A stretch of DNA of 64,000 bases, taken from NCBI GenBank assembly GCA_026874595.1, contig CM049311.1, positions 21,694,676-21,758,675 on the forward strand. Direction: 5' to 3'. This document shows positions 8,427 through 38,841 of the stretch, in pieces; within the stretch, counting starts at the first letter, position 1; each line of letters opens with the position of its first letter. The position numbers and the translations under genes are program-made. Below the pieces are notes generated by a model. It saw only the letters and a program-made list of their open reading frames with translations, was not told the DNA's origin and did no database searches. The stretch is from Sipunculus nudus (lineage: Eukaryota; Annelida; Sipuncula; Golfingiida; Sipunculidae).

Positions 8427-8639
8427 CTTTTGTTTGAAGACTCGGATTGCTTTCAATGACACGCTTAATGTGTTCCCCCTCGAGATCTGATTCATTGCTG
8501 ACAAGAGCCGAATCGATTCTCTGACACTCCGCCGCCGCTTTGCGTACATTCCTTCTTGGTTTCGGAATGAAATGGTAGCTACTTGTTCCATAACGAATGT
8601 GGGCAAACATGTGCCCGAATAAACCCTGACATGACCGTC
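8427..8639 (-). CDS. Orphan C-type lectin-like domain exon (N-terminal half)
   Basis: On the minus strand an acceptor (TACATGTTTCAG) opens a 213-nt exon with 2-nt entry and 1-nt exit phase, ending at a donor AAAG/GTAATA. The peptide contains SCQGLFGHMF, then SSYHFIPKPRRNVRKAAAEC, then ALVSNESDLEGEHIKRVIES. This is the CTLD start: a Cys-x-Phe/Tyr strand, the helix ending in AAxEC, and a (L/V)xSxExxxE helix. The first cysteine of the usual SCY motif is replaced (SSY). The partner C-terminal exon should lie below 8427, but a 30-bp minisatellite fills the adjoining intron and no YWTSG-like exon is found in the window, so this is an exon fragment or a broken gene. The exon phases are identical to those of the lectin exon at 23102-23317. 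Confidence 0.72.
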
Positions 8640-8819
8640 CTGAAACATGTAAGGTAATTTATTTTTATGTTGTTTTACTCATTACATTCTCATTAAAAGG
8701 ACAGATATATTACCTATTTATCTGACAGTTAACAGACAATTTCTCGAAAACTCGAAATCCTGGGATATGAAATTGGTCTTCAGGTCGGCGGTGTTCGGTT
8801 TTTACGTCAAGTGCAGCAG

Positions 8820-8824
<5 letters not shown>

Positions 8825-8890
<66 letters not shown>

Positions 8891-8895
8891 GGGGG
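8825..8895. repeat. (AT)n(AG)n(G)n compound microsatellite
   Basis: About 16 AT units, then about 12 AG units, then about 16 consecutive G. The mirror-ordered (CT)n(AT)n tract lies about 330 bp downstream (9222-9321). Confidence 0.95.
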
Positions 8896-9221
8896 TGGGG
8901 TTATTTAGGTTGCATTCATGACCTCCAGAGAATAATATCCTGCAAGAAACAACTGCTACACTTTGGAACCAGAGCTGCATTGTTATACAAATAAAGCGGA
9001 ATAAACTTTTGTCAGACATATGTTCCAACACGTAATTTTGTCTTACTCATCAGGTTAAACGTACCTGATAATCTGTTACTGTTATGCAATCAAGGATTAC
9101 CCATACAACAGACTACCCAAATGTTTACCGTTATAAACCAAAACAGTTCAACCATCAGGCATTCTTACCTCGAGTGCAACATGTTGCACGAAACTACGTA
9201 ACATGCTTGACTAAATTGATT

Positions 9222-9229
9222 CCTCTCTC

Positions 9230-9321
<92 letters not shown>
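9222..9321. repeat. (CT)n(AT)n compound microsatellite
   Basis: About 22 CT units followed by about 26 AT units. Read on the other strand it is (AT)n(AG)n, so it is inverted relative to the tract at 8825-8895. Confidence 0.95.
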
Positions 9322-9325
<4 letters not shown>

Positions 9326-10977
9326 GATGGGAAAATAGTGTTTTGTCCATACTTACTGCGTGTCTGCGTGAAAGGCGAAGTGATAGATGATATTTGTCCA
9401 GTCGAACTGTTTTCTCTTACTTCTTTTGGGACCTGACTTCTTGTCATGATTATTTTCCCTGTCATTGTTTTATTTTCTCTGGCCTTTACGTTTTATTTTC
9501 TGGCCTTTCCTTTATTTTTTTCTAGCCTTTCTTTGCAGGCGACAAATTAAGCTTTTAGATACTCATCCTCTAGTGACTTGCTAGAAGAGTCAGTACATTC
9601 AGCCCAGGCCAGAGTTTGCATTTTCCCATCGTCAGTCTATTTTCTTATGGGAACGGCTGCTCGAATATCTATTGGGAAAAGGAAAGCTCGGTAAATACAA
9701 ACATGCAGGTTTTCTTTTACATATTGGCCTATCCTGTGCCTGTATTATTTCACCAAACGTCGGATTTACAAATCACCTAATCTACAAATAATCTAACAGC
9801 GCTTCCGAAAACATAAGCCTTTTTTATACATACCTTCAACATGAATTAAAACATATATTGTAATTATGATCGCCAGAAAAGGTCCATGTTGCTACTCTAT
9901 ATCAATACATTTACAGTCAACTTTTCAGATGATCAACATTTTTCATCTGGCGTTTTAATTTTCCTGTTTTGGTTGGTTTTGCAGAGATAATTTCTACCAG
10001 ATATAACTAAAGGATTGAACAAACCTCAGAGCAATGACACGATTGTAAATACTGAACCAATGCCACTGGAACAAGAGGTTTCAATTAACTTTAATGAGCC
10101 ATCTGTCATATTGATTAATATATATCTTTAAAAAACTAGACCAAAAGCTGGCAGATATGTTCATACTTTGAAACCTTTGTATAAATGGTTTTACTCATAC
10201 GTTCGAATTGTTGCCACTCAAGACTTGTCACCTATTTTTCAAATTTCTATAGAGGTAATTGACGGCACAAACGTTTATGGATCCTGTTTAACAGATGAGA
10301 GGAAAAGAATTTATACATAATCTGTCACTTTTTGCTATTTCTTTGTCCCACTGTCATTAATTTTATCAGCAGTTTTTCTTAAACTTTTTTTTCATGAGTT
10401 AACTAAGGATTTGACAAAAATTCTAATATGATTTCTAGTCTCATTTAATGACAACAGTATATTTGGGGATGCTTTCCTGGTATCTTTTTCTCAAAGACGA
10501 CAAAACTATTAGCATCTAGGCCACAGTGACCTAATTTCCGAAATTTAAGACGATTTTCCAATTACTTTTATGGACATTACGTTATTTATGGGTCACTAGC
10601 CGAATTGCTTACGATTTGAGCCCGGTTTTTACGGTCAGCCGACCGGAACGATGGCGGACAAAGCGTGATCGCTGCATGTCAGATTGAAACCCAGAAATTC
10701 TGATAGAAAGATTTCATTAATTTTCTTTACCTTGGCTTAGTAAAGCCAGACAGTCTCAACAGGTAATAAAATTTGAGATCCTAGGACATACTTCATGAGT
10801 AGTCAAGCTTGTGGAATTTAAACATGAATTCTACGAATTATTGCCAAAACCGGTTTAAAAAAGGAATGTTCATACAGGATAATTTACTCATGAATTTCCA
10901 ATAATACCTTTATAAACATTCCATGTCTGATTTTGATAACATTTGCAGTTATACCAACGATGGATAACATTTCTTTG
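9322..10977. other. Non-coding; remnants of a local duplication
   Basis: No exon is visible. Short islands resemble sequence about 1.8-2.0 kb downstream. TTTTCTTATGGG...GCTCGAAT at 9637-9668 matches 11427-11460. CATGTCTGATTTTG near 10922 matches CATATCTGATTTTGG near 12895. This fits an old tandem duplication that also carried the lectin exon (decayed copy 10978-11345, intact copy 13031-13488). Confidence 0.45.
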
Positions 10978-11345
10978 TTTACCATTAGTTTGTTGATCAA
11001 GTCAAAGAACTTTGATGAGATCCAAGGCTCCAGGGATTTCTATCTCCCAGACGAATGGGCACGACAGATACACGAAACAGCTTTATGTCCAGTATTTTGG
11101 ATTGTATCATCAGTCTTGTTTAATTTAACGGCAACTCTGAGAGTTTCATTTATCAAAAAGTTTCAGTTTTACACTTCTCTGGAACTCTTCGGACGCCTCC
11201 CGTCTGAAAAAAAATTTGCACCATTTCAACCATAGAGTCTCTCAGTTTCGTAAACGTGTCCAGGAAAACTGTTAGTACCTTACAGCTCGTCGTATTTGCT
11301 CTGACACTCCCTTGCAGGCAGCAGGTGTAGCCCCGGCTACAAGTG
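10978..11345 (-). pseudogene. Decayed C-type lectin-like exon
   Basis: On the minus strand this is a degraded relative of the exon at 13031-13488. Its plus-strand text holds GATCCAAGGCTCCAGGG, CCAGACGAATGGG and TGTCCAGTATTTTGGAT, matching GTCCAAGGCTAAAGGG, CTCAGACGG and TGTCCAGTATTTTAGAT of the intact copy in the same order. The opening half can be read as GYTC ... TTSCKV, against GYVC ... YSCYK in the intact exon, followed by sequence that no longer fits the family. A possible acceptor (CACTTGTAG) lies at the expected place. Frames are disrupted and motifs are lost, so it is most likely a pseudogene. Confidence 0.6.
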
Positions 11346-13030
11346 CTCATCCACCAGAAATTTGTGACAGGACGCCAGAGATCATGTCATTTGGATAAAT
11401 ATTTTCGTTTTTCAGTTTTCAGCCATTTCTCTTATGGGTTTTGCATGCTCGAATTTCTATTCACAGAAACAATACTCACTAAAAGAGTCCTTTTTGTGTC
11501 TGGAAATTGTTTGGGGGTAAAATGACGTCACTTCAGCATCTTTTTGTTGAAGGCCTGCTCGATCAACTATACAAATATATTAGTCTGTCAGTTAGCGCAT
11601 ATACGCGCACATGGAAACACACCTATTTTTTCACGCATATACGCGCACATGGAAACATACCTTAACACTCTATATCATGTTTTTTTTTCATGCTTCACTG
11701 TCCCCGGTGTCCAGCATCCAGGATACTTGGGGTGCATTAACAAGTATAGCAGGAACAAGGAAAAACCTGGAGGAACTTGGCAATAATGTAGTAAATCCAG
11801 CAAAAGCTAAAATAATATTTATGTTTTTTCTTTTACATTGGCATTCCTTATGTATGGGCCACGAGAATAACACTTTGAAACAGGTACCATCGCTCGCCTC
11901 TGAGTGGGACATGTTGAATTTTATAGGTCGATGTGGAGGACAATGTATCGAAAAGTACCACTTTTTCTTGGTTGGCTTCCTCTTGTTCTGAATCATGAAT
12001 ACACGTCTACAACTAGGTTTTTGTCTGACGTAATTTTTTATACTTTTATCTGGAATTTTGCATGGATAATTCTAGCACCGTTATACGTCTTTTCATATAA
12101 TACCGCTGTTTTTTTCTTGAACAATACATTTGTGAAGAATTATTGAATTATATGTATTGGTTACAGGACATCAACGTCCATGCACACGGATAAATATATT
12201 TTTAGGGAAGGTTTTTTTTTTAAGTGGGTGTCACAAACATCTGGAGAGAGAAAAGCACATCCCTTGGAAATAACTTTCCAGGTAGCTAAAAAATATCACC
12301 ATTAATCATTTCCGGCTTTCAGAGCCCGTGATCGAAATATGCAGCCAGTACACGATGACTACCTTCCTTTGGATTTCAACTTACCCCTAACTGGACATAT
12401 GGTTAATTCAACGTAATTAAAGCACCATTACAAAGTTGCCGCATTTTGTAACGTTACAATCAGCGTAAATTATTTTGAAAGTAGTCATGCAGATTTTGCA
12501 GATCACATAAAAACACAGAATACGATATTTGAAAGAGATATCCATTTTAAACAGCGCCTTGGTGTTACTTCTTTTCGTGACGGATGACATCCCAGGAGCC
12601 GATTTCGGTGTGACAGACTTTTCTGCACATGGACTTTATATGTTCAGGGTATGTTTCACGTGATTTTATGATGAAAATCTACGGTATATGATGATATATG
12701 CCCCGTGTGCAGTATGAACAATTAACCATGTAGTTTTTGCTGAGGCGAGAGACACCTGCCGAAGCTAGATGTCGAATTATATAAGTTTTGGAGGATTTAT
12801 ACGTATCAAAACTATATTGAAAGTCGACTTGGAAATATTTCTTGAGAAATATTCTTTGGGATACATATGTTCGATATTGTTTTTCTGAATACTCCATATC
12901 TGATTTTGGTAACTCTCGCAATTACGGCATCCATGTTCCTGAACACAGACATTGAAATCTTTAAGATACAAATTCCCTTGCCATATTATTCTTTTGCTGC
13001 ATTTTATCCATGAAATATTTGTTGATCAGC
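11346..13030. other. Non-coding between lectin copies; one 36-bp duplication
   Basis: No exon is confidently seen. A 36-bp step duplicates GCATATACGCGCACATGGAA at about 11598 and 11634. A minus-strand frame of about 100 residues over 11688-11996 has no recognisable domain and no splice context. A plus-strand LVLLLF-type hydrophobic stretch near 12556 lacks a start codon. Confidence 0.45.
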
Positions 13031-13488
13031 TCAAACACGAGTGGCTATTCTCTCGCAGATTACACCGAAGTTCCGGATCGTCATAGTGTAAGACAACAGA
13101 AATCTAAATTTCCTTGATAAATAAAGACAAGTATGAAAAGGTCCAAGGCTAAAGGGTTCGTTAACTCTCAGACGGTTGAAGTTAATCTCCTCTCCGGTAG
13201 CACACCAGATCCACGAACCATTCTTACGTCCCGATGTCCAGTATTTTAGATAGGAAACCCTACCGGATTTTCTTGAAACTCCGAAATGTTCCCTGTCTAT
13301 TCTTTCCATTATCTGCTTTACATGTTCAATCTCCTCAGGTGTTTCTAGGCTAATAAGTTTTGAACCGAGCCGATCACAGAGCTTTTCAGCTTCATACAAA
13401 TTTGTATGTTGTTGCTGAAAGATTTTATAACAACTGTAGTCGTTGTCTTTAGAAAACATGTTCCCAAAGGAGCTGTCACATACATATC
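13031..13488 (-). CDS. C-type lectin-like domain, complete in one exon
   Basis: A minus-strand acceptor (TTTTGCAG) opens a 458-nt terminal exon (2-nt entry phase, 152 codons, TGA stop). Order of elements: YVCDSSFGNMF, then SCYKIFQQQHTNLYEAEKLC (strand 1 and helix 1), then LISLETPEEIEHVKQIMERI (helix 2), then KYWTSGRKNGSWIWCATGEE (core, equivalent to the WIGL region), then FGVICE (final strand). The helix-1 Cys and the final Cys can form the conserved disulphide. The EPN/QPD and WND motifs are absent, so calcium-dependent sugar binding is doubtful. A Cys in FHTC has no obvious partner. A signal peptide or first exon must lie above 13488 and was not found. Unlike the plus-strand gene, the domain is not split by an intron, although its entry phase is the same. 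Family role: secreted or membrane recognition proteins, often immune in molluscs (inference). Confidence 0.85.
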
Positions 13489-14029
13489 CTGCAAAATAGC
13501 AATGTTGTCATTGTAAATTATTACATCGCTTGTAAATAGATGATCTGGAATTATTTAAATGCTACAGAAAGATTACTATTCATGAAATGCCCCTATAGAA
13601 AAGATCTTACATTTTCAAAGTTCCCCTTATTACTAAGAATTGATCAGAATAAATGAAGCCTTAAATACCTTCTGACGTTGGAATTTTAAATTCTTAAGAT
13701 TATATTATCCTTGATATTTAATTGAATAAAAATTGTTTAATAATCCTGAATCAATGCTTCGATGTTAACTGATGATATTGACCTTTGACATACTGGATTC
13801 TAAACTTGATATTTCTGGGGATTTGCTCAAATTGCCGACGATCTCTGTGAAGTACTGGGGATCCAGACACTGACTGGGCGTTTAAACAGATTCCGTTTGG
13901 TCTACTTGTTGACCCTTTTCTGTCAACCCGAGTATATCTTCCATGCTGCCAAAAGCTGAAATAACTGATTAAATACTGGTATAAACTTGTATGTCTATTT
14001 CAATTTGCTTAAGTTAGTGAAAGTCAACG
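13489..14029. other. Upstream/intron of the minus-strand lectin exon
   Basis: AT-rich, with no exon recognised. The missing 5' exon of the 13031-13488 gene (signal peptide, Cys-rich leader) would be expected here or beyond. Confidence 0.4.
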
Positions 14030-14260
14030 ACGACCAGGCGGATTTTAAATTCGCCTAGACGATATTGTGACCATTTTCTCGCAAAGACGGATTTTAAACT
14101 CGCCTAGAAAAGTTTGGAATCGCAATCTCGCTTATGCGAGATCAAAATTCATCACAGTGCAGACCAGGATTTTAATCTTGGCAAATCGAGTCTAAAATCC
14201 CCCTGGTATCATCCAGACGAGTTTAAAAAACTGCCTAGGCGTGATTGGAATTGTGATGAG
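14030..14260. repeat. CGCCTAG-rich fold-back repeat, copy 1
   Basis: A diverged copy of the palindromic family seen at 15880-16100 and 16270-16440. It has GGCGGATTTTAAATTCGCC, GATTTTAAACTCGCCTAG, AATCGCAATCTCGCTTATGC and CTGCCTAGGCGTGATTGG. The motifs occur in both orientations, so the unit can fold on itself. With 15880-16100 it could bracket an AT-rich interior as one element. Confidence 0.6.
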
Positions 14261-15486
14261 ATGGTATTTCTGAATACATTGTGCATTGTAAATGACATGA
14301 ATGATGTTTTTTCAGTTGTATACTGAATATAAAGAGCTCTGCCAATTTTTGACATTAATGGTTACCATTATGTATAGACTGAGATATTACTTGCATGTTT
14401 GGGGTCTTACAATCTTATAGCATTTAATAAATGTCTGATGAAGTCCATAGGAAATATCATTACTATTCTTTACACTAAAATTATTGATAAAATAATTAAC
14501 ATTAATTTTGGAACTTTTTTGTTTTTGAACAATTTTTGTATCATTAACATGTATTTGTACATAACTTGCACCTTTTTTTGTATTCTGTGTGGTTTACAAC
14601 AATCATCTCATTTAATGTTTTGCTTAAAGTTAATGTATTGATTAAATGTCCTATGCTTAAGGGCAGTTTAAATTTGGCACAACAAGAAATGTGGACATGC
14701 ATTCATTTTGTTTATGTAAATTCATAATTTGAAAGTAGCAACTTATTCACTGTCATCTGAACTTAACAAAAAGTGTAATAACTCTACATCTTTTTTTCAG
14801 CTTTCCATGAACTGTTGAGTATTTTACCATAAAAATCAACAATAATATATGAAAATTCATTATATATAATTTATTATGTATAGAAATTTTAGAGCAACAG
14901 TTATAAAATATATTTATCAACATTTCTATGATATCATTAAAGACGGGTCATCTTTAATATGAAACTGTAAATACCAGAGGAAATTTGAGATATTTTATAT
15001 CAATGATAAATTGCTTATATATATTACTTTTGAAAATGTATCAATATTTAGGTAAATACTAGTACAATATCACTGCCATGTTTTCCTTTTAAATTTAGGT
15101 TTAAAATTTAAGTTGTGCATATTTTTTTATGGGTGTGCATGTCTTCCTAAAATACTACAGTTACTAATATCAATTAATTCACTTATTAATATTAACAATA
15201 TCTATTTTTAATAATTATGCAGCTTTTTGTAAAAATAATCAAAGTAAACCACAATACGTAAAGAATATTAAACTTTCAAAGAATGCCACAGCCTAAATAT
15301 TTAAAAAATGCCAGATAAATTGCCCTATTCATCATATAATTAGCGGCAAATTCAAAACAGGCAAGAAATCAGAACTAGAATGGCTTTGTTTTTGCAGCGC
15401 AAACAGTTATATGTCTCCCCCTTTGGCCCATCCCACTAGGGGTAAAATATGCACTATCACAAAACAATGATTCTAGATTTCAACAG
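14261..15486. other. Very AT-rich non-coding stretch
   Basis: No gene and no splice-bounded exon. It lies between two copies of the CGCCTAG repeat and may be the interior of a non-autonomous element. Confidence 0.4.
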
Positions 15487-15760
15487 GTTAAACCTTGAAG
15501 GTCAAGGTCACCACTTTTCGAACTCAAATCAGATTTCGGCAGAAAGAACCGGTGTGTTACATTTGAGGGAAATACTTCAAAAGTTATGAGGTTTACAAAA
15601 ATTTCGGCAGATTTGACCTTGAAGATTAAGGTCAAAGTCACCTAGTTTCTTACTTTCCGAGATTTTTGGATGAACAATGAGTGTTTAAAATTTAGGAGGG
15701 AAGTATGCAGCCCTTCAAATGTTATCGCGTTCACAAGATTTCCATATAAATAGTTATATA
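15487..15760. repeat. GACCTTGAAGGTCAAGGTCA-type repeat
   Basis: Contains ACCTTGAAGGTCAAGGTCAC and, about 130 bp on, TTGACCTTGAAGATTAAGGTCAAAGTCACC, both in the style of the repeats at 1-560 and 44580-45370. TCAAGGTCA is the extended nuclear-receptor half-site form. Confidence 0.5.
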
Positions 15761-15879
15761 AAATACCTATTGGAGCTTTGCCAGTTTCTGGTTAAAAATA
15801 TTACTGAAAACATCATTCATATGTAATCTACAATGCCCAATATATAAGAAATACCATCAGACCAATATTTTTTTTCTCG

Positions 15880-16098
15880 CCAAGGGCAATTTTAAACTTG
15901 CCTGGATGATATCAGGCGGATTTTAAACTCACCTTGATGATTCCATAATGGATTTTGATCTCGCCTAGGCGGGACTGCGACTGCAATCTCGTCTAGGCGA
16001 GTTTAAAATGCGTCAAGGCGAGATCACAATCGCAATCTCGCCTAGGCGAAATAACAATCGCAATCTCGTCTAGACAAATTTGGATTTCAATCTCTTTG

Positions 16099-16157
<59 letters not shown>

Positions 16158-16160
16158 AAG
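15880..16160. repeat. CGCCTAG fold-back repeat, copy 2, with (AC)n(AT)n
   Basis: Several CTCGCCTAGGCGA-like sites in both orientations, including a perfect 12-bp palindrome TCGCCTAGGCGA at 16038-16049. The block is followed by an (AC)n(AT)n microsatellite (16100-16153). The whole unit is tandemly duplicated at 16220-16530. Confidence 0.8.
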
Positions 16161-16219
16161 GTGGAGGTATTCTTTATTTATCATTTTAATTACCTGACAA
16201 TTAATAGAAATAACATCAT

Positions 16220-16446
16220 TCATATGTAATCTACAATGCCCAATAAATAAGAAATACCATCAGACCAATATTAATATATCTCGCCTAGGCTAATTTTAAA
16301 CTCGTCTGGATGATATCAGGCGGATTTTAATCTCGCCTAGGCGGGATTGCGATTTCAATCTCGTCTAGGCGAGTTTAAAATGCGTCAAGGCGAGATCAAA
16401 ATCGCAAGCTCTAGGCAAATTTGGATTTCAATCTCTTTGTCACACA

Positions 16447-16502
<56 letters not shown>

Positions 16503-16530
16503 GTATATATATATATATATATATATAATT
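16220..16530. repeat. CGCCTAG fold-back repeat, copy 3 (tandem duplicate)
   Basis: Repeats the preceding unit, sharing ATATGTAATCTACAATGCCC (also at 15820), ATCAGGCGGATTTTAA, AATCTCGTCTAGGCGAG, CAATCTCTTTG and the following AT microsatellite (16449-16496 and 16503-16527). The shared flanks show that the duplication included sequence outside the palindromic core. Confidence 0.8.
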
Positions 16531-16539
16531 CTAAGGTAG

Positions 16540-18830: not shown

Positions 18831-18834
18831 ATGC

Positions 18835-20854: not shown

Positions 20855-22811
20855 CATGAACAAGGAAGTTAATAAGCTGAAAAGAAACAGCGCTTAGAAG
20901 GAAATCTCGCTATATATCTATTTTTGTAAATATCAGATCATATGATTCATGTGAAAACGCGTCTTAACTCAAATGTGCTGAATCACCTGTCTCATAAACT
21001 TTTTTGCATGAGTGAATGCATCAGTTTTTATCATTAATTACATCCATTTTAGCTGCAATATATGTAATGTACCTGTAATAATATCAGGAGATAATTGACA
21101 TTGTAAATTAAGTAAAGGTCACCAACACTGGGCCACAGTGATTAAACCGAAGTAAATTACGTCCCCGGTAAGAATTAATATAATCGAATAATAAGTGGCA
21201 GAATTCTAGTGATAATAACTAGACTTCTTGCAATTCTCATGAGACAGTCACGAATCTTCATCTACCCCACTCCTGATTCTCCACTGTTTGGTATTCCTAT
21301 GAATTTAACATTTTTTTATCTATTTCTAATTGTTTGAAAAAATCTGTAATACAAAACATGACATTTGATCATTTCTTCCTGAGTTTTCACAGAGGAGAAG
21401 CAAATGGTGACGTCATGTTTCATAATTTGCAAATTATTAAAGAATAAATAAAGAAATCATGACCAAACCTTGCACTGCATTTTTTGTGATGTAAAATATC
21501 TTTTCATATAGGAGTTATAAAGTTCCGGGTCCAGCAGCTAGGATGAAAAGACCGGAAGAGATATATTCTAAAGGGTGCAGATGCTAATTAAAAACTGATA
21601 AGAGTCAATAAAGAGATGTTCCCTTCTGAAGTGAAAATCATTGTATAAAATTTATTTTAAAAAAATATTAAAGAGAGATGAACATTTACAGTTTGTTCTT
21701 TTGACATCTACTGTGACCTTAGCTCACGTCTTCCTAATTTGCCTATCGTTGAAAAATTATCAAAGATATCTCTATCAAACATGCCCCTGCACCCCTCCAT
21801 CGTAAATGGCCCGTTTGTCAAGGATTTGGCAATGGTGTTTTCAGTGGTTTTTTATTAACTAAAGGTGCTGGATCATAAGTTTCCGTATAAGCGAGTTAAA
21901 AATTTCGGTCATTGAAATGTTGGGAAGCAGATTTTATAAAGGCATATTTTGTCCCCATTATTTTCAGTACCAGTTATAGATAAGTAAAATTCGACATTGA
22001 AAATCTTTAAACAAATCTAACTTTTTGAGCCCTGTGACCTTGAAACTGGGTCAAATAAATTGGACTATAGTACGGTACATACTGGGTAAGAAGCAATGAA
22101 AAATGACGAATAAGTGGCAGAATAAGAAGAATAACGGGATAAGGGATAGGCGGATGGAAGAAAAGGAAAAAAAATTCCCGGCAACAGAACCCCTCAAACC
22201 CTATACAAAGGAACACATATGTATATTAGGTGTCTGGTGTAGGTCTATCAAAATGTCAGGCAAATGCTTTGAAAATGTTGTCAAGATGTCTTTCTTTTAA
22301 GAAAAGAATGTATTTTGTACATTTCCTGTCGACTCGAGTGGTCTATGGGCCTATTAAGACCAATTTATGGCCATCGATTTCCTTTCATTGAAAAGCGATG
22401 AAAAATTAAAATGTGTTGTTTTAAGGGGGCCTGTCCATTAGTCTTTTTGCTACAAACACAAATAAATAAACCCAGGGCAGAAGTTTATGTCTCCTGGTTT
22501 ACAAAAATGGAATTATTAAGGCAGATCTCTATGAAAATATTTTAATTGAACCAAGGAATAATGAACCTGGCATTATGTGGTCTCCTGGTCCATGTTTTGT
22601 GTATGTACATTAACATTTGATACATTACAACATTGAACCGCACTGTCGACGACATCCAAAGGATAAAAAAAAATTGTCCATCAAATTTGTGTTATGTTCT
22701 CTAGTGGTCATTATGGTTCGAAAAAAATTCATTAGGAATACAATAATCACCGAAATATTGTTCAGGTTATACCTGAGTTTCTGACAGAAGTTTGTCTTTT
22801 TACGCTTGTAG

Positions 22812-22976
22812 GCAGAACATCTGCAGCCAAAGAAAGAAAACAAGTAATGAGAGAGGATGTTCGTGACAGACTGACTGATGGAAAATATATGTGTTTTGGA
22901 ATTCCTCCATGCCGGGATAATAACATCTTCATGAACATAGCACTTACCTGTCGTAATGCGTCACCGAAGGGTTGTC
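22812..22976 (+). CDS. C-type lectin-like gene, Cys-rich N-terminal exon
   Basis: Acceptor TTACGCTTGTAG and a strong donor C/GTAAGTATT bound a 165-nt exon (2-nt entry, 1-nt exit). The peptide starts RTSAARERKQVMREDVRD (RTSAAKERKQ in this copy) and continues KYMCFGIPPC ... LTCRNASPKGC. Four cysteines and no strong hydrophobic stretch suggest a small disulphide-bonded module before the lectin domain; I cannot assign it to a family. The final C plus the GT of the next exon give an Arg codon, so it joins cleanly to 23102-23317. The paralogous exon at 33466-33630 has the same length and is still open, which argues that the exon is real and has been under constraint. The signal-peptide exon upstream was not found. 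Confidence 0.8.
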
Positions 22977-23101: not shown

Positions 23102-23317
23102 GTTACGCATGTACTGAACCATTTGGCTACTTGTTCACTGGAGATGCTTATCACAACGCCAGTTGCTACCTGTTCTTACCGGAAGCAAGAAGCAGTTTCC
23201 AGAAAGGAGAGTCAATTTGTGAAAGTTCGGATTCGAAACTTGTCAGCATTGAAACATGGGAGGAGATGCAACATCTGAAGAATGTCGTCCAAAACGACTC
23301 AAGTCTTATTGTGCCAG
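23102..23317 (+). CDS. C-type lectin-like gene, CTLD exon 1
   Basis: Acceptor TTTCTTAAAG and donor CCAG/GTCATA bound 216 nt with 2-nt entry and 1-nt exit, the same phases as 8427-8639. Peptide elements: YACTEPFGYLF, ASCYLFLPEARSSFQKGESIC (first strand and helix 1 ending in the conserved Cys) and KLVSIETWEEMQHLKNVV (second helix). The helix-1 Cys is expected to bond with the Cys of GVLCE in the last exon. The frame runs on past the donor for about 36 codons into the intron, so an unspliced reading would give a truncated protein. A 1.18-kb intron separates it from the last exon. Confidence 0.87.
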
Positions 23318-24495: not shown

Positions 24496-24743
24496 ATTTA
24501 TTTTTGTCCCTGGGTAATAATGCATACTGGACATCGGGGACGGACAAACATGAGAAAAATGCATGGATATGGAGTGCAACTGGACGGAAGATAGATTTTC
24601 GCCAGCTGAGGACAAGAGTGTTCGCCCTATTTGACTTTCACAATTATCTTTCATTTGCCCCACAAGAGAGTGTCGTATGGGCTCCCAGCCTCCCCTTTAA
24701 GAAACTGGGTGTTTTGTGTGAGAAGAGTCCTCCCTGTGAATAA
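24496..24743 (+). CDS. C-type lectin-like gene, terminal CTLD exon
   Basis: Acceptor TATATTGCAG opens 248 nt (2-nt entry, 82 codons, TAA at 24741-24743). Elements: NAYWTSGTDKHEKNAWIWSA (core strand region, YWTSG in place of WIGL), TGRKIDFRQL, then KKLGVLCEK and the tail SPPCE. The calcium/sugar motifs EPN or QPD and WND are absent, and so is the second disulphide pair of a canonical CTLD. Sugar binding is therefore doubtful, and a protein-ligand or divergent role is more likely (inference). The AATAAA overlapping the stop codon is unlikely to be the real poly(A) signal. Neighbouring 3' sequence is shared with the pseudogene copy to about 25012. Confidence 0.87.
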
Positions 24744-26017: not shown

Positions 26018-26815
26018 CTCGTCGTCGTGAAGGGAGGGTGAATGTTTCAGGAAGGGATTCTGTCGTTGTCGTGAAGGGAGGGTGAATGTTATAGGAAGGG
26101 AATCCGTCATTGTTGTGAAGGGAGGGTGAATTAAAGCAGGAAGGGACTCCCTTGTTGTCGTGAAGAGTGGGTGAATTGTAGTAGGAAGGGATTCCCTCGT
26201 TGTCGTGGAGGGAGGATAACTATGGCAGGAAGTGATTCCCTCGTTGGCGTGAAGGGAGGATAAATGTGGCAGAAAGGGATTTCGTCGTTGTCGTGAAGCC
26301 AGGGTGAATGTTGCAGGAAGTGATTTCGTCGTTGTCACGAAGGGAGGGTGAATGTGGCAGAATGGGATTTCGTCGTCTTGAAGGGAGGGTGAATGTGGCA
26401 GGAAGGGATTTCGTCGTCTTGAAGGGAGGGTGAATGTGGCAGGAAGGGATTTCGTCGTCATGAAGGGAGGATGGATTGAAGCAGGAAAGGATTCCATCGT
26501 TGTCGTGGAGGGAGGGTAATTTTGGCAGGAAGGGATCCCCTTGTTGTCGTAAAGAGCGGAGGAATTGTGGCATGAATGGATTCCCACGTTGTCGTAAAAG
26601 AGGGTGAATTGTGATAGGAAGGGATGCCCCCTTTGTCGTGAAGAGAGTGTAAGTTGAAGCAGGAAGTGAATCCCTCGTTGTCGTGAAGGAATGGTGAATT
26701 GTAGCATGAAGGGATTCCCTAGTCGTGAAGGGAGGGTGATTTTGGCGGGACGGATTCCCTCGTTGTCGTGAAGATAGGTTGAATTGTGGCAGGTCGGTAT
26801 TCTGAGAAATGTCCT
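26018..26815 (-). repeat. 45-bp minisatellite, ~18 units, open on the minus strand
   Basis: The unit is about TCGTTGTCGTGAAGGGAGGG then TGAATTGTGGCAGGAAGGGATTCCC, usually 45 bp, with some units shortened by 3 or 4 bp. Because 45 is a multiple of three, a minus-strand frame of 293 codons (26872 down to 25991) and a second overlapping frame (26573-26220) stay open. The peptide would be 15-residue repeats rich in Pro, Ser, Thr and Arg, with words such as TLPSRQRGNPF. There is no signal peptide, known domain or splice context. I treat it as a minisatellite with incidental coding capacity, though a repeat protein cannot be excluded. Confidence 0.85.
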
Positions 26816-27564: not shown

Positions 27565-27568
27565 TTAA

Positions 27569-29529: not shown

Positions 29530-29615
29530 AGTCCATCTCTTGACCATTGTGTTCCATGATACACCTGATGGACCCATCAGGTCTAACATAGGACACAAGG
29601 GTCCAGAGATGGACT
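29530..29615. repeat. Imperfect hairpin, 42-bp arms
   Basis: The left arm 29530-29571 (AGTCCATCTCTTGACC ... CACCTGATGG) and right arm 29574-29615 are complementary at 36 of 42 positions with a 2-nt centre. A C run and CA microsatellite follow (29617-29644). It may be a tiny fold-back element or an RNA hairpin; the 2-nt loop argues against a standard microRNA precursor. Confidence 0.75.
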
Positions 29616-29927
29616 ACCCCCCCCCCCCCCCACACACACACACAATGCTGAAGCAATAAGAAAAAGCCATATTTTAATGAACGATTTCATAATTGATACC
29701 GACCTCTCAGACGTTTCCAAATAGATAAAAACTCGAACTTCTCTTTGGCCCATGATATTACATCGTCTAGAGAAGAGTGGCTGTTGATCCGGTTGACGTC
29801 AGATTTTTTTAGTAGCAGATTACGGCATTTTCATTTGGAATGCTTCTGCTTGCTCAGACTTAAATTCAGGTGACGAAATATTACACCCAAAAGGCCAAAC
29901 ATTGAGCCCTTGAAATATATGAATACT

Positions 29928-31720
29928 TTAAACCGGTTTCAAACATGTCTCAGACATGTCTTGGTGTTTCAACGAGCGTTCATCGGGAAAAAATTGATGA
30001 CACATGTAAAAGACGTGTCTGCCAGAAAACATGTCACAAATTGAAACATGTATGAGAGAGAAGCGGCACTTTATACAGTGACATACACCTATGTTATAAA
30101 ACCCATCTTTAAGATCTGCTGTAACTAACAAATCATTGTGCTCTGTTTGTTCAGACACTGTATCAATACCTTCTGACCGGAACTTAGGAACAACAATATT
30201 TTGATTTAACAGTCTGAGGTCTATGATTAACCGGTACTCCCTACCTTTTTTTAGGTACACCCTTTAATGGAAATATACACAATGGGTCCTCACCTACATG
30301 ACATTTCGTACTACACCTTGGCCAAGTAACTTAAGTAATTTAGCATCAACACGCTTTCTTTGTGACCCAGACAAGGAGTTATTTTGTAACCTTAAACCAA
30401 ACTGGACCTCCTTAAAAACCAAAGGTACACCATTAGTTACCAAATCAAATATGTTATCACTGGCATTAATGTTTATCGAAGCATCTGTTTGTCGAGCCAG
30501 GGGATTTATATATGTGAATAATAAAACCTTATATACATGCAAAAAAAAAAAACAAAAAAAAAAAAACATGCATCATGTTGACACTGAATAGACCATTCAC
30601 AATACACAGTTCACCTTCATCCCACAAAGTGGCACTAGTCCATAGAAATGTCCGGTCCGTCTGGACGTCCACTCCGACCACGGTTGAATGGAAAACCTCT
30701 GTTGCTAGTGAATGAGCGGAATACATCTGATGATTGTTGCCTGTCACTGAAGCCACGTCCGCCTCCACGGCCAAAACCAACTGTACGACGCCAACCATGG
30801 CCACGGCGCTGTGATTGTTGGTGCTGCTCCCTAGCGGCGGATATTGCAACACAATTACGCAAGGTATCAAGTGAAGCTGCAGGGAAGGCTCCCGCGTGAC
30901 GCTGCATACAACGATATACGCTAGCTGTTTCTGGACCTACGTTTCCCTGCACCAAACGTAGAGCATACTTCTCTTCTAATAACGTAATGCAGCAAATGAT
31001 ATTACAAATATACCATGTAAATCAAGTTCAGTTACGGAACCAGATTCGATTTCTGATATCACCATATATAGGCCTAATGTCTCAAAATATTAACCAGTTC
31101 TAGAAATGATACTGAATACTGGCAGATCTGCTCTACGTATCCCTGTTCTACCGGATTCACTAATCATTTGGAAGTCTAGTACAGCGTACCCCGTCTTCAA
31201 TAGTTCTGTTCAATAGGAACTCTGTATCAAAACGAGAGTAAACGAGGGCGCCCTGAACACTTGATGAACCTTCGGCTGGATTACATCAAAGGCGAACAAA
31301 ATTACTGTCCATGTGACAATTGGCACCGGCAATAATTGCGGGATTTTCTATACTGGGGCTGTGGTACTCGCCCATTGATTCTGGCAAATAACGCCACTGA
31401 TCACGAAAGTTTGACCGACCGCTTTCATGCGACACATCAAGTTGGGGGTCACTGGGTGCATTCGCAGACAGATTTCTGCAATCGCAAACAGATTTCTGTG
31501 TTAGTGTGTAGCTGTTTGATATGGCGCCAGTAACGCTAGTTCCCGGAGCATTAATTTAGAGCGTTAACCGCCTCGGTACGTGATTCCTGACCAATGCTCC
31601 GTTCAATTATATTTACCCTAGACGATAACTGTCCAACTGACGCATTTGGACTCTTTAAACAAACTAATATTTTGTCCAATGTAGCATTTTCCTCCGATTC
31701 GTTTGTCTGATTCGCCATAT
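29928..31720 (-). pseudogene. DIRS-like retrotransposon remnant (gag and RT)
   Basis: Minus strand, 5' to 3': a gag-like start MANQTNESEENATLDKIL (from about 31720) that soon hits a stop; a stretch of Gly/Arg-rich nucleic-acid-binding type (words RGHGWRRTVGFGRGGGRGF) around 30700-30800; then a reverse transcriptase N-terminal part with KLLGQGVVRNV, KKGREYRLIIDLRLLNQ, VPKFRSEGIDTV and LVTADLKDGFY. The RxIxDLRxLN and (V)xxDLKDGF words are RT motifs, and the F-x-x-EGI word is typical of DIRS/tyrosine-recombinase retroelements. Two stops interrupt RT near 30265-30295. The YxDD active site, RNase H and recombinase are not found downstream, so the element is broken and 3' truncated. It abuts the start of duplicated block B. 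Confidence 0.65.
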
Positions 31721-31939
31721 CCCACCGCGGAGGGTGACACAAAGCGGAGAATGAATAGAATGGGTGGCGATATATTGATGTCCCCACGTATGGCAATGAC
31801 CTGACAGTTAATATTGGTTCGGGTGATAGACAAACAAGGAAGTTAATAAGCTGAAAAGAACCAGCGCCTGGAAGGCAATTTCACTGTATAACTCGACTTC
31901 TTGTAACTGTTATACGACAGTCAGGGATTTACACCAACG

Positions 31940-32105
31940 GTGATGGTAAGAATATTAATGCAGTCTAATGGTAAGATTACCGACTGTTTACCATTGTATT
32001 GATGCAGTTTAAAGGTAAGAGTACGGAATGTTAACCCATTATACTGACGCAGTCTTATGGTAAGAGTACATACTGTTTACCATTGTTTTGGCGCAGTTTT
32101 ATGGA
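31940..32105. repeat. Short tandem repeat, ~60-bp unit, about 3 copies
   Basis: Repeats of GCAGTCTAATGGTAAGATTACC / GCAGTTTAAAGGTAAGAGTAC / GCAGTCTTATGGTAAGAGTAC, each followed by CTGTTTACCATTGT or a variant. It lies in the part of copy B with no match in copy A. Confidence 0.7.
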
Positions 32106-32259
32106 TGGTGGTTGCAGTGCGTTTTCGCCTACGACTAGACTTGTGTTGCGACGTACACACAGACTTACAAGCCTAATTAGTCGTGTGTACAACTATAGCT
32201 GCTGCTGAGTAACTACATCCGACATCGTCATCGGTAAAGTAAGAGGCAGTAGAAACAGA

Positions 32260-32448
32260 ATGTCGGCAGCAATTGGCGACGATACCAATGTATCGTTTCC
32301 GGATTTTTTTGTAATCTGTCTCTTAACATGTACGTTTTCTATATATATATTGATGTATTCCCCTGATTCATCTGTTCCAATTTTTCATCTTGCACCTCTA
32401 ATTGTTGATGAAGCACTTCCATCATTCCTGCCCTTATGGTGGAAATAA
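32260..32448 (+). CDS. Possible small membrane protein, weak
   Basis: A 62-codon frame opening MSAAIGDDTNVSFPDFFVIC, with a hydrophobic stretch (residues ~13-32, containing FFVICLLTC and FSIYIL). AATAAA overlaps the stop codon. It lies in a part of copy B missing from copy A, next to tandem repeats. There is no recognised domain, and upstream sequence does not show a clear promoter. It may be chance or part of an inserted repeat. Confidence 0.15.
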   Translation: MSAAIGDDTNVSFPDFFVICLLTCTFSIYILMYSPDSSVPIFHLAPLIVDEALPSFLPLWWK

Positions 32449-33465
32449 ATTGTAGATTTGTAGAAGAAGAATTTCGAAGTAGATTTGAACAAAATTATGT
32501 GACAGGGTAAAACAGAATGTCAGGCAGCAGAAAGCCACAACTGATATTTTATCCACAACTGATATTGCGATAGCCAACTGTTATTAGCTTTAAATAGAAT
32601 AGATCCATGGAGATTGCTAGTTGCTAACAGAGGAATGGGTTCTACTTAATAATGCGATATAATTGTTTTTATGGACTTTAGACCAAAAATATTCTAAAGT
32701 TAGCAGGTTTTATTAGCTTCATATTTTATGTAATTTCACATTACAACTCAAATAACATATTTTTTCCCAAATCAACAGCAACTTTATTAATCGAATTGAT
32801 GCTGAGTAGGATTTTCCTGTTAAAGAAACGGCAACAGAACTCCTCAAAACCTCTCCTGTTGAGAGTATAAAGTACATATGGTTATAAAATGACTGGTGAA
32901 GGTCTATCAATATATCAAGCAAATGCTTTAAAAATGTTGCCGAAATGTATTTTTATTAGAAGAGAGAGGATTTGTACATTTCATGTCCACTGGAGTGATT
33001 TATTGGATTTATTAAGACCAATTAAAGCAATTGATTTTTTAAATGGAAAAGCGGTGTAGAATAAAAATGTTATTTTCGAGGGGGGCTATTAGTCTTTAGC
33101 ATTTATCTTTTGCTACAAACACAAATAAATTAAACAAGGGCAGTAGGCTTTTGTGTCCTGGTTTAAAAAGGAGAAATATTGAGGCAGAAGATGTTTAAAT
33201 TGAAATAAGGAAAAATGAATCTAGCTTTATGTGGTTTCCTGGTCCAGGCTTTATGTGTGTATACTTCTATTTTTTGATATACTACAACACTGAACCGCAC
33301 TGGCGACGACATCCGACGACAAAAATTTGTCCATCCAATTCTTGTTATGTTTCCTAGTGCTCATTATGGTTCGAAATATGTTAATTAGAAATACAATTAT
33401 TACTGAGTTATTGTTTAGGTTGTACTTGAGTCTCTGATAGAAGTTGGGTCTTTTTATGCTAGTAG

Positions 33466-33630
33466 ATAGAACATCTGCAGCCAGAGAAAGAAAACACGTA
33501 ATGAGAGAAGATGTTCGTGACAGACTGATTGATGTTAAATATATGTGTTTTGGAATTCCTCCAAGCCAGGATCATAACATCTTCATGGACATAGCACTTA
33601 CCTGCCGTACTGCGTCACCGAAGGGTTGTC
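33466..33630 (+). pseudogene. Lectin pseudogene, exon 1 (still open)
   Basis: The paralogue of 22812-22976: same 165-nt length, acceptor (ATGCTAGTAG) and donor (C/GTAAGTATT) kept, frame open. The peptide has RTSAARERKHVMREDVRD and KYMCFGIPPSQDHN; the fourth-position Cys of FGIPPC is changed to Ser, which would unpair a disulphide. It is called a pseudogene because the next two exons are destroyed. Confidence 0.8.
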
Positions 33631-33730
33631 GTAAGTATTATAATTTATATATATCGAAAAATCTCTTAACCCTGATCGTACCTAAGGGTATGACACTGTT
33701 TGCATTGGTTCTCATGCACGTCAATGAAAA

Positions 33731-34671
33731 GAATAAGACAGGCCTTATTCCAGTCCCCGGGAGTGGAAAAAAGGAATGCTTATTTCCACTCCCCCCCCCC
33801 CCCTTATGATAAACCATGATACAGTCTTGAGTATTTTGGCAGTTAAAATGACCAAAACTTGGTGTTCATTCTTTCCAGTGATAAAGGTAGTGTAATAACT
33901 GGTTTTCTATACAAAATCCTCTCTCAAGTACTTCTTTAGACGCAGTAGGGACAGACAGTTACACATTTCTAAACAAACAGGTTTTAAGATTTTCTGTTGA
34001 AATGTTATTCATTTAAATGCATTTAACATCAATTTTTCAAGCATTAATGATTTGCATAAAAACCCCTGACAATTATCATTTATATTTATAAAAAATAAAT
34101 AAATTTTATTAAAATAATTTTTTTTATTATAAAATGTTTAAACATTTATAAAAAAAAATCAAAGACATGTAGATTAATATTTTTCTGCAGTGCCAAATAA
34201 ATTTTGTTGGTCTAATTGTTTAATCGTTTTGAAAATTTATATGTTGATCATGAGAACTAACTTAAAGTAGCGCATGAAGGGTGAGGAAGATTTCGACACT
34301 ACTTGATAACTGGCTGAGATACCTTATCAGTAGACTGTTGGCACCTCATTAGTGAGCTCTGGTTTTGTGTCCATATGCTCAGACTGGTGCTATCAGCTCT
34401 TGGCTCAGAATACCAGGTAAAGCCCAGACAGTTTAACTGGACTGGCACCTGAACCCTGGTAGGTTGTTTCACTAATTTACACTACCACTGACTCCATCTT
34501 GAACATTTTCAATGACGTTACTGTGGTGTCAAAATAGGTGAAAATTACTAGAATTGTGATTAAAAGAAAAATTAAAACTTTAATGTAACATAGGATGATT
34601 TAAGACCAATGTCACTATAATGATTAGATAGACATGCATCTCAAAGGTAAGCCCAATAACATTCATCTATT

Positions 34672-34721
<50 letters not shown>

Positions 34722-35458
34722 GTATAATGTTATATAATATATTATTATATATGCATGATATATTATATTATAAATATAATATATAATATTATCCTATAGA
34801 GCTGCTGTAAACTAGATATTTCTTGGCACCGCAGGTGCAATAGTATCACCAGACAATTACCGCCACCCCCCCCCCCCCCAGCCTCGAAGAATAGGATCCC
34901 ATCTTGAATTCAGATGCAGAGACTGACACTTGGCAAGCCACCATGGTTTCTTTTCAAATTTGACCTAGCCGTTTGGTGACTGTACCTCAACTTCTTACAA
35001 AGTTATTCCGTTTAAACATCAGTTTAGCAAGAAAACAACAAAAGGTGGCGCCATCTATCTTCTGCGGAAAACAATGCTATCAAAGATCTTATGTAAATTT
35101 GATTTTTGGACCAATCCACGCATCCCTCAGTGAGATATTAAAGTTAAGATCATTTCAGCGTTATCTCTCTGACCTTGAAAAATGCATCAAGGTCATCCAT
35201 ATTCGAACTTGGTCTAGCCCTTAATAAGATGCATCTAAACTGTAGGTTTGGTGACTGTACCACAAATACTTTTTGCGTTATTGCCCTAATATTATTTTAG
35301 CATAATCGCTGCTGTGACCTTGAAAAAATGCATCAAGGTCATCTTTGTTCGAACTTGACCTAGCCGTTGATAAGATGCATCAAACCTGTGGGTTTGGTGA
35401 CTGTACCTCAAATTCTTACAAAGTTATTGCGTTAACATCATTTTAACAAGAAAACAGC
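33731..35458. repeat. Insertion/replacement in pseudogene: repeats
   Basis: Homology to copy A stops after CACGTCAATGAAAAG (33730) and resumes at about 35459 inside exon 2, so about 1.73 kb replaces the intron end and the first half of that exon. Contents: C runs (33791-33803, 34866-34879), (TAT)n(AT)n (about 34668-34719), and two to three ~180-bp repeats at about 34950-35450 with TTTGGTGACTGTACC, ACAAAGTTATT and TGCATCAAGGTCAT. The exact ends of any mobile element were not identified. Confidence 0.65.
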
Positions 35459-35549
35459 TCGCATTCGAAAATTGTCAGCATTGAAACATGGGAGGAGCTG
35501 CACCAGCTGTAGAATGTCGTCCAAAACGACTCAAGTCATACTGTACAAG
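35459..35549 (+). pseudogene. Lectin pseudogene, exon 2 remnant
   Basis: Matches the last ~90 nt of the 23102-23317 exon (ATTGTCAGCATTGAAACATGG ... AATGTCGTCCAAAACGACTC), including the donor (ACAAG/GTCATA). The first ~128 nt, carrying the SCY strand and helix 1, are gone. An in-frame TAG at 35510-35512 replaces a Lys codon. Confidence 0.85.
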
Positions 35550-36207
35550 GTCATAATTTACCACAGACCCTTAACGCCATATTTTCAGTATGTGGATGAA
35601 AACAGAAGCCACATATGCCACTCCCACAGCTCACATGTTAACACGTTTCCTCGCTTAAGAATTATAGTAATTCTGAAAGTAGTCCGAAATTTGCTAAGCA
35701 AAATTTTTTTTAACATGGACAACCGATAGCATTACATCAAGTACACCTTGTATGGACAAAATTAACAACTAAATTTTAATTCAGTTCAATATCATGACAT
35801 GGTATTGTCATGCCATATTACAGTGCTACCCCAGTTTGATATAACATAAAAATAATACATACATTAATACTTTTAGTATTATTAAAATACAACAACAAAA
35901 ATTGACAGATACTATGTACAGACCTCCGCCAGGATCCTGAGCAATGTTGACTGGGTTCTTCTAAGATATAATTAACAAACCAGGTTATTATAACTATGGA
36001 AAAACCATATTTTAATGATTTCATTGCACGTGAAACGTCATATTTTTGGACAGAAGATACATTTTAAGTGAGGAGATATGAAAAGTTGTTTGCTAATTTT
36101 TCGCCCACCTTACTAAATTAGTCTGTAAATTCATTGCGTAAAGCGTGAAAGCCTCGTTTCATTTGTGGATTTACCAGGAAATACGTGTTTGAGTACTGCG
36201 AACATTT

Positions 36208-36605
36208 TTTTTTTTTTTTTTTTTTTATTTTTTTGTTGGAGGTAACTGCCTCCATTTTTTTTAATGCTAGCTAAGTATATGTACATCTGCAGATTTCCAT
36301 TCCGGTTTCGGACTACTTGATAGGGCAGTATCACACGCTTCCTCTCATTTTATATCCTGGCGTTAACCAGGCCCGGTGACTCCTGCACCTGCGGGCCCTG
36401 GGTTGGTAATCATACCACCGAGGACCCCCGAAAGGCGCACTCGTTTGTGAGTGAAACACGGCCGTTGGGCACGACCTTCCCATTAAGCCTGCAGAGCCTG
36501 GGTTGGGGCCGACCGTGGAAAACCTCACCGCCTCGGCTGAGATTCGAACTCACGATCTCCCGGCTTTGAGTCCTACGCTCTACCCCTGAGCCACAGAAGC
36601 CGGTT
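36208..36605 (-). mobile_element. tRNA-derived SINE with 14-bp target duplication
   Basis: On the minus strand the head starts CCGGCTTCTGTGGCTCAGGG. It has an A box TGGCTCAGGGG (plus coordinates 36583-36593) and B box GAGTTCGAATC (36541-36551), 31 bp between the boxes, as in Pol III promoters. The body follows, and a long A tail (T run 36205-36227) ends it. The insertion is flanked by perfect 14-bp repeats TACTGCGAACATTT at 36194-36207 and 36606-36619. The equivalent intron site in copy A (around 24157-24177) is empty, so insertion followed the duplication. A second copy is at 41597-41956. Confidence 0.92.
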
Positions 36606-36661
36606 TACTGCGAACATTTCTTATTGTATGACCTTTATTTTCTGTCTAAATTGGTTATAAA

Positions 36662-38330
36662 TCGTGGTGGGAGTCGGTTCCTTTTTCATAATCGATGATC
36701 GATTTGAGCAAACCGATCGACGATCGATTATTAATCGGTTCAGACAAATATAAAGAAATATGCAATCATCTGTGAAACTGTACTCTCTTGACCCAGCCCG
36801 CATGTTTAATAATTCTCTTTTATGAAAAGAAGTTTTTTTCCTTTTTAAAATTTTCCTAATATTGCTAAGATATGCTATTCAAAGTTTCATTTTAATTAAT
36901 TATAATAATCAAAACATCTACTTGCTAGCCCTCATGAATACTCCCGCGTATTATTTTAACTTCACCACCAGCAAGGACTTTCATTTTTTAACAATTATGA
37001 CGATTGTCGACATGCATATATAATTTTTTTTTGGTAAAAATTAAAAAAGTTATAGAAAGCAAGATATATAAATAATCACGTATAACGACCAAAGGCTTGG
37101 GGGTAATTATTTCTATTTGTTTTTGGTTTGAAAAGCTGGTCACTTTTGTTTGATTTTCAGTGCCATTTATCAGCTTGATCATAATTAAAAACTGTCGCAG
37201 ACATCGACTATTTGCATCTGACGGGTCATACTCTGATATATATACCAGCAGTTGTGTTAAATTTATGACCATACTATTATTTGTAATATTACCAAAGGCA
37301 TTTAAGCTTATTTTTCATTTTTTTTCAGTCTATTGTCACTTTCTTCATTTTTGAAATAAAACTTTTGTAAATAACGTACCAGCAAAATGCACTAGAAAAA
37401 ATTAACGACAGCCACGGTGCCTATAATGCTGAACATATTTTATTTTTCTGTAATTAATGACTGAGCGAGCAGTATTGATCGCTATCTTGTCTACATCCTA
37501 AATCGGTCATTTGACAGCAAGAACCTCGGGATAACTTTTGTTTAAAGTAACAGCAAGGAACTTCCGCTTTATTTGTAATCAAATGGGACCATTTTCAATC
37601 GCTCATTTTTAGGGTGTTTCGCCCGATTAACCAAACTGGGTAGCGTTTTCCCGGCAGTTATTCTCCTTTGCGCACGAGTGTACCGACCCCTCCACGTATA
37701 TTGGCACAATCAAACAAATTTAAGGCTCAATGAAATGATCGGCAACGTCGGGTAATATCTTTCATTATGGCAATTATGAGCATTTAAGAATGTTGGGCCT
37801 ATAGAGTCGCTGTTTTCTAGCACATGAAGGCAGATTTTTTACAGCCCCGGTGCGCTTGCAGCAGATCATACAAAAAAATTAATTAGCAGACTAATTTTTT
37901 AATGGATGGCCTAAACAGCGTCAGCGATTATTTCTAAGAGAATCTCGCAAAATTGGCATAGACCTGGAGAAGTATGCAGCATTTTAACGCCATACCGCCC
38001 ATATTTTGCAATGAACATCTCGTTAGAAAACTCTCCGCTAATTCTGCAGCTCCCTGCCAGTTCACCGACATTTTAATAAGACCTCCGTTCTCGCATCTAC
38101 CCTGTCATACTCAGTAACATACGGAAGTTATTTGGGAACACAGACTCATTATATGAAGCGCGGAATATTGAAAAATTGTAAGAATGATTTTTGCCTATAA
38201 CAGAAAGACATTCTGGAAAAAAAACAATTATGAGTATGATATAACCAATAGTTGCCTTTGGCAATTGAGGGCTTGAAGGGGCAGCAAACCGACTGACACT
38301 CGATAAAACTCGATGATCGGCCCATCACTA
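36662..38330. mobile_element. Non-autonomous hAT-type DNA transposon
   Basis: The left end TCGTGGTGGGAGTCGG and right end, read inward, TAGTGATGGGCCGATCATCG form imperfect terminal inverted repeats of the TAGTGATGGG kind seen in hAT elements. The flanks are GTTATAAA (36654-36661) and GTTTTAAA (38331-38338), an 8-bp target duplication with one mismatch, as hAT makes. Just inside the left end are overlapping CGATGATCGATT / CGATCGACGATCGATT words, candidate transposase-binding sites. No transposase reading frame was found in its 1669 bp. It interrupts sequence that is continuous in copy A near 24200-24230. Confidence 0.72.
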
Positions 38331-38595
38331 GTTTTAAAGTAGTTAATATTAAATTAGATATAAAATAGCACGCTGTGGAAAAGACCACATCTGACAAGTA
38401 TTCATAAAATGTGCATGCCCTGGAGCAATAGGCGGGTAGAGACTCATAAAAACAAATACAAAAAACGACCACTTATCCAATATGATAAACCTGTTTCTTA
38501 TTTCGGGTATATGACGCGCTCTCTAAAACATGGTTAATGACAGCTCTGGTTAAAAAAGGGATATTGGAGTACCTCTGTTTCATGTTATATTGCAG

Positions 38596-38841
38596 ATTCA
38601 AATTGGTTCACTGGTCGGCCTGCATACTGGATATCGGGGAGGACGGACGAACATGGGAAACATGATGGAGTGCAACTGGATGGATGATAAGTTTCGCACG
38701 CTTGAGGATAACGTATAAAGTTAACAATCGTACTGATGTTTAAAATTATCTTTCATTTGCACCACAGAAGAGTGTCAAATGGTCTCCCGTGCTTCCCGTC
38801 AACGAACTGGTAGTTTTGTGTGAGAAGAGTTCTCCCTGTGA
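38596..38841 (+). pseudogene. Lectin pseudogene, exon 3 remnant
   Basis: Homologous to 24496-24743, with the acceptor TATATTGCAG kept and the words PAYWISGRTDEHGKH readable. A small deletion in the NAWIW region then shifts the frame and a TGA follows at about 38685. Later parts match the exon again (KKS/KRVS-type text then VLCEKSSPCE in another frame), and the original stop TAA has become TGG. No functional lectin domain can be made from this copy. Confidence 0.88.

Follow-up and report, generated by a model that had tools for sequence, protein, structure and literature searches.

A cluster of C-type lectin-like domains (CTLDs) on both strands of the Sipunculus nudus genome belongs to a large family in which, as read from exon phases, a split between two CTLD halves is the rule in the genome. 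From sequence evidence we consider it likely that these genes encode secreted recognition proteins, probably not classically Ca-dependent, that come from a large expansion of C-type lectins (CTLs) as in bivalves. For one copy, situated at 13 kb, we conclude from the gene models and trees that the intron between the halves was lost and not gained.

The window, i.e. the whole 64-kb stretch of DNA analysed, is C6:21694676-21758675; the genome searched comprises 1.43 Gb in 153 contigs. A muscle-myosin exon taken from this genome had a squid chain as its best PDB match (194.1 bits), narrowly ahead of mammalian myosin-6 (193.0) and scallop (192.8), margins that are compatible with a mollusc and no proof of one. 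The CTLD pieces in the window were found by tblastn, family HMMs and Pfam together, and are listed here with their upstream exons and the evidence for each feature.

4830..5032, minus strand: probable decayed second CTLD exon with in-frame stops (tblastn, sequence)
8427..8639, minus strand: first CTLD exon (orphan half-domain), entering with 2 bases and exiting with 1 (tblastn, family HMM)
11666..11722, minus strand: 58-bp remnant of a second CTLD exon (blastn)
13031..13488, minus strand: one-exon CTLD with stop codon, internal intron absent (Pfam, sequence, upstream scan)
22561..22600, plus strand: signal-peptide-like first coding exon of the split gene, MNLALCGLLVHVL, exiting with 1 base (5-copy alignment)
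22812..22976, plus strand: orphan 55-codon cysteine-bearing exon of the split gene (genome search)
23102..23317, plus strand: first CTLD exon of the split gene, entering with 2 bases and exiting with 1 (tblastn, family HMM)
24496..24743, plus strand: second CTLD exon of the split gene, including the stop codon (tblastn, family HMM)
33215..33254, plus strand: signal-peptide-like exon of the pseudogene unit (5-copy alignment)
33466..33630, plus strand: orphan exon in the pseudogene unit; the frame remains open and one cysteine has been replaced (83% identity)
35446..35545, plus strand: truncated first CTLD exon of the pseudogene unit, with a stop (tblastn, family HMM)
38596..38842, plus strand: decayed second CTLD exon of the pseudogene unit (tblastn, family HMM)

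Loci of the window and their exons

The first-pass annotation had placed five CTLD loci in the span 8427..38841 (a half-domain, a decayed exon, a one-exon domain, a split gene and its pseudogene). All five were confirmed, the decayed minus-strand exon being most likely the 58-bp remnant at 11666-11722; three of the five are broken or partial. The exon-phase plan proposed for them also held: in all three copies that keep the start of the first CTLD exon (at 8.4, 13 and 23 kb) this exon enters with 2 bases, and both split first exons (8.4 and 23 kb) exit with 1 base. So did the intron difference inside the cluster, the CTLD at 13 kb being unsplit and its relative split.

The expectation that the Pfam profile Lectin_C would score these exons was borne out in part. 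It found the one-exon domain (13031-13507, minus strand; E = 6.4e-5, 24.1 bits) and the spliced split gene (E = 3e-5, 25.1 bits, profile positions 3-60 of 107) above the curated cut-off of 22.6 bits, which places both in the C-type-lectin-like superfamily. Single exons stayed below the cut-off or went unmatched: the first CTLD exon of the split gene alone gave E = 0.0023, under the cut-off, and there was no Lectin_C match at E <= 1 for its second CTLD exon alone, for the half-domain at 8.4 kb or for the pseudogene piece at 35 kb. An intact sister copy of the split gene scored 21.2 bits, just below the cut-off. The family HMMs built here recognized the second exon of the split gene (E = 7.9e-23), the 8.4-kb half-domain (E = 4.3e-21) and the pseudogene pieces (E = 5.6e-5 and 1.2e-10). 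PDB matches of the CTLD include solved CTLDs such as mosquito mosGCTL-1 (E = 3.2e-5).

In the 8.4-kb half-domain the nearly invariant cysteine of SCY is replaced. Its probable decayed partner exon, at 4830-5032 on the minus strand, lies outside the span given in the first-pass annotation, which had missed it. Evidence for this exon is modest, since it was reported by tblastn (E = 0.004 and 0.012) and not by the family HMM; its order and phase fit the half-domain. Because of this partner we read the 8.4-kb locus as a pseudogene. The remnant at 11666-11722 is 79% identical (blastn, E = 5e-6) to an intact second half located ∼2 Mb away on C6.

The split gene at 23 kb is complete on paper, with four exons, 222 codons and all introns in one phase. 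Two of its exons, the signal-peptide-like exon and the orphan exon, had been omitted previously. The orphan exon carries several cysteines and lies 125 bases upstream of the first CTLD exon. A genome search with it (six candidates scored) gave five places, all on C6; one belongs to the split gene, one to the pseudogene unit, and the other three precede CTLD genes at C6:19.53-19.55 Mb. In all five aligned upstream regions a start codon, a hydrophobic run and a donor site are kept, and we take this conserved exon, judged by eye, to be a putative signal-peptide exon. The three genes at C6:19.53-19.55 Mb, ∼2 Mb off, have the same four exons, 222 codons and open frames, and stand in repeated units of ∼9-10 kb. 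Alignment of the four intact copies has just two indels, each of two codons and both in the second half; no membrane span was seen by eye. A minisatellite 3' of the split gene (26018-26793, units of 44 and 89 bases) is also found 3' of gene copies at C6:19.53-19.55 Mb and therefore travels with the duplicated unit.

For the orphan exon there was no Pfam match at E <= 10 (two copies searched; HMMER filters drop most weak matches) and nothing credible in PDB (best E = 1.5). Its identification as half of a known domain, which we had presumed might be the sea-urchin-egg-lectin domain, was dropped given the lack of a Pfam or a credible PDB match. In the pseudogene unit, two copies of a 146-base tandem repeat (35170-35445) replace the front of the first CTLD exon.

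Elsewhere in the window, tRNA and Rfam scans of the 64 kb gave no match, and Pfam searches of 34 other ORFs gave a single weak match to reverse transcriptase (29928-30263, minus strand, E = 0.0017, under the Pfam cut-off), likely a decayed retroelement. Tandem arrays occupy 45806-47234 (units of ∼277 bases), 50624-52732 (142/287) and 53855-54572 (277); the 277-base arrays may be related to each other, and no gene was found under the long arrays at 45806-54572.

The family in the genome and the intron of the 13-kb copy

It had been suggested that the cluster may be a lineage-specific non-sugar-binding recognition family. As a self-contained family it is at odds with three results. Genome-wide, at least 150 matches were found for each half-domain query (150 of 773 candidates scored for the first half and 150 of 1114 for the second, all of them matching; E-values are for a six-frame search, and the matches were not each confirmed as members of the split family). 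True numbers are probably above 150 per half. The 8.4-kb half-domain is closest to a copy on chromosome 12 (46% identity, E = 3e-9, versus 37%, E = 1.6e-5, for the window's own split gene). The first half of the one-exon copy, taken alone, does not join the C6 group. The one-exon protein as a query gave at least 107 genome matches at E <= 0.01, itself included.

Exon phases were read for 39 distinct second-half exons, including those of the window's split gene (L020) and of four other C6 genes; L001-L009 and L017 had been set aside before the count. Entry with 2 bases was seen in 38 of the 39. A first half was located nearby for 30 (for the other nine there was none within the fetched stretch), and of these 28 exit with 1 base and 28 enter with 2, the halves being separated by 148 to 1308 bases. 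A simple score served to choose the splice sites, and the phase misses (L019, L050 and L066) may be wrongly picked sites.

More split CTLD exons are located ∼0.3 Mb from the window (C6:21999489-22017302), with stops in three of the four first-half matches. Lectin_C matches that are almost identical to each other, several dozen in all, are also scattered across most large contigs in open frames of ∼330-440 codons, often two or three in succession; their appearance is that of a CTLD within a mobile element.

The one-exon copy at 13 kb has a frame open across 158 codons, and nothing convincing as its first exon was found in the 6 kb upstream. The first-pass annotation had proposed that an intron was gained or lost within the cluster. 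Loss in the 13-kb copy stood; gain was not borne out by the tree, by the AU test or by the phase count of 38 in 39. On a tree of 40 rows, including eight canonical unsplit CTLDs of the same genome, the one-exon copy is placed inside the split family (fork 100/99), in the starred group with C6 genes and next to a split gene at C6:22.01 Mb (87/71). This nesting argues that the intron was lost. A constraint joining the one-exon copy to the eight canonical unsplit CTLDs was rejected (AU test, P = 0.0103). In a tree of first halves, which has few columns, the rows nearest to the one-exon copy are again split genes, the nearest being a chromosome-3 copy.

Its lack of the internal intron could be explained in another way, if the one-exon copy had arisen as a processed copy, or as a chimera that joins halves of two family members. 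Between helix 2 and YWTSG its linker has 19 residues, compared by eye with 17 in the split gene; this would fit such an origin, as would the discord between the first half alone (nearest to chromosome 3) and both halves together (with the C6 group). Yet a good acceptor is kept right before the one-exon domain and no poly-A tract follows its stop codon (both by eye), which speaks against a processed copy, and the half-domain tree with its few columns gives the copy no firm place. We regard such an origin as very improbable and retain intron loss; the copy offers a clean intron-loss case, datable through orthologues.

Motifs, selection and predicted function

The sugar-binding motifs EPN/QPD and WND had been described as missing from the window copies, and they are indeed absent from all readable second halves there (where EPN would stand, the 13-kb copy reads EPF). 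Their absence is not a mark of the family: among the 39 second halves read genome-wide EPN is present in 14, QPD in 3 and WxD in 28, with WND in none. In 36 of the 39 the loop has at most one cysteine, a count in which the last cysteine of rows ending in CE is included, such rows still having fewer than two. The 36 of 39 point to loss of the loop cysteine pair as a family trait; loss of the sugar motifs looks like a later step in the window's group. The one-exon copy has a single loop cysteine, at the C2 place only. Both this copy and the split gene have, in sequence, the cysteines of a predicted outer disulphide (C1-C4) and of the N-terminal pair. The missing loop pair counts against a 'canonical CTLD' and not against a 'CTLD', because the domain class has known variants. 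An AlphaFold2 model of the one-exon protein (four-row alignment with three other window peptides) was unusable, with pLDDT 40.

Selection was estimated on the four intact copies as six non-independent pairs. The dN/dS ratio was 0.09-0.43 in the first CTLD half, 0.78-1.23 in the second and 0.79-1.16 in the orphan exon. The second half showed more amino-acid change than the first (P between 1.5e-5 and 0.35, four of six pairs below 0.05), while silent change did not differ between the halves (P from 0.11 to 1.0). When the second half was cut back to begin at YWTSG the ratio became 0.81-2.09, on few silent changes. The dN of the second half is of the same order as intron divergence; relaxed constraint and diversification are therefore indistinguishable here. 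A faster second half as a rule of the family was considered and rejected: in nine pairs outside the C6 group the dN/dS ratio of the second half was higher in four, lower in three and equal in two.

The working unit would be a gene of four exons whose introns all share one phase, comprising, in order, a signal-peptide-like exon, the 55-codon N-terminal module (on C6 only), a scaffold half and a loop half. The first CTLD half would act as the conserved scaffold and the second as the more variable loop half. The protein is probably secreted and predicted to bind its ligand through the second half, most likely in the absence of a classical calcium/sugar site and of the loop disulphide. The cluster would have grown by duplication of ∼9-10 kb units, with copies lost by decay and with loss of the intron between the halves in the 13-kb copy. 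The sequence shows the anatomy of the genes on paper, their copies and phases, where the one-exon copy belongs and which motifs are missing; splicing as drawn, secretion, ligand binding and a role in recognition or immunity are what we infer, as is non-sugar-binding by the window copies. In favour of secreted recognition proteins we count the Lectin_C scores above the cut-off, the solved CTLDs among the PDB matches, the four 222-codon copies with the same exons, found through the orphan exon at its five places, the constraint on the first half, the two-codon indels confined to the second half, the shared splice phases, the nesting of the one-exon copy in the split family and the published bivalve CTL expansions with mucosal expression (PMC10140915). 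Against it we count an intact copy just under the Lectin_C cut-off, the unusable structure model, a signal exon judged by eye, the first-half placement of the one-exon copy, and the near-neutral second half and orphan exon, which are compatible with a fading function.

That same near-neutrality is the core of a rival reading, in which the cluster consists mostly of dead or dying relics, the 23-kb gene and the one-exon copy are fading too and the near-neutral parts reflect relaxed constraint. Several observations would agree with it: dN/dS is ∼1 for the second half as well as for the orphan exon, the second half has a dN close to that of intron divergence, three of the five loci are broken or partial, and no first exon was found for the one-exon copy. 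However, four copies keep 222-codon open frames and splice sites, as the neighbouring pseudogene does not; their indels are only of two codons, and the first-half ratio of 0.09-0.43 is low, so we hold general decay to be unlikely. A bolder reading of the C6 group we put forward tentatively: having lost the loop disulphide and the calcium/sugar site and gained the orphan N-terminal module, its proteins could have turned to non-sugar recognition by diversifying the second half on a fixed first half, with the intron as the border between scaffold and variable part.

Our preferred reading remains that of secreted recognition proteins from a large CTL expansion. Lineage-specific recognition families are a source of variety in animals that have no antibodies, and a fixed intron between scaffold and loop, together with a loop pair missing in 36 of 39 second halves, makes this family a case for how far a CTLD can be stripped.

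Comparison with known CTLD families

Bivalve CTL repertoires are described as numbering ∼200 genes and reaching 300-500, with many of the genes in lineage-specific subfamilies, and a bivalve-wide mussel CTL subfamily as expressed mainly in gill and digestive gland (PMC10140915). The family described here resembles the expansions in that account in its hundreds of CTLD genes, lineage-specific subfamilies and small, probably secreted single-CTLD proteins (PMC10140915). The fixed internal intron, the missing loop pair and the orphan N-terminal exon set it apart; the main text of PMC10140915 contains none of the words intron, disulfide and motif. Among the titles and abstracts listed by literature searches none names this split or a missing loop pair in a mollusc family, which at that level argues only weakly for absence.

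Codakine, a bivalve CTL whose structure is known, is described as a secreted CTLD, as predicted for the window copies. It retains the loop disulphide together with a calcium site for sugar, unlike the window copies, which lack the loop pair and EPN/WND (PMC12842671). Interruption by introns is also described for the fish antifreeze-like and the group VII and XII CTLDs, with introns upstream of C1 and downstream of WIGL and, in the antifreeze proteins, an additional intron between C2 and C3 (PMC514892). In contrast to the introns so described, the internal intron of the present family is located before YWTSG, its equivalent of WIGL.

The canonical unsplit CTLDs of the same genome (eight loci, mostly on C17) likewise have the CTLD fold by sequence; unlike the split family they have one exon and the loop cysteines, and they form a separate clade (100/99).
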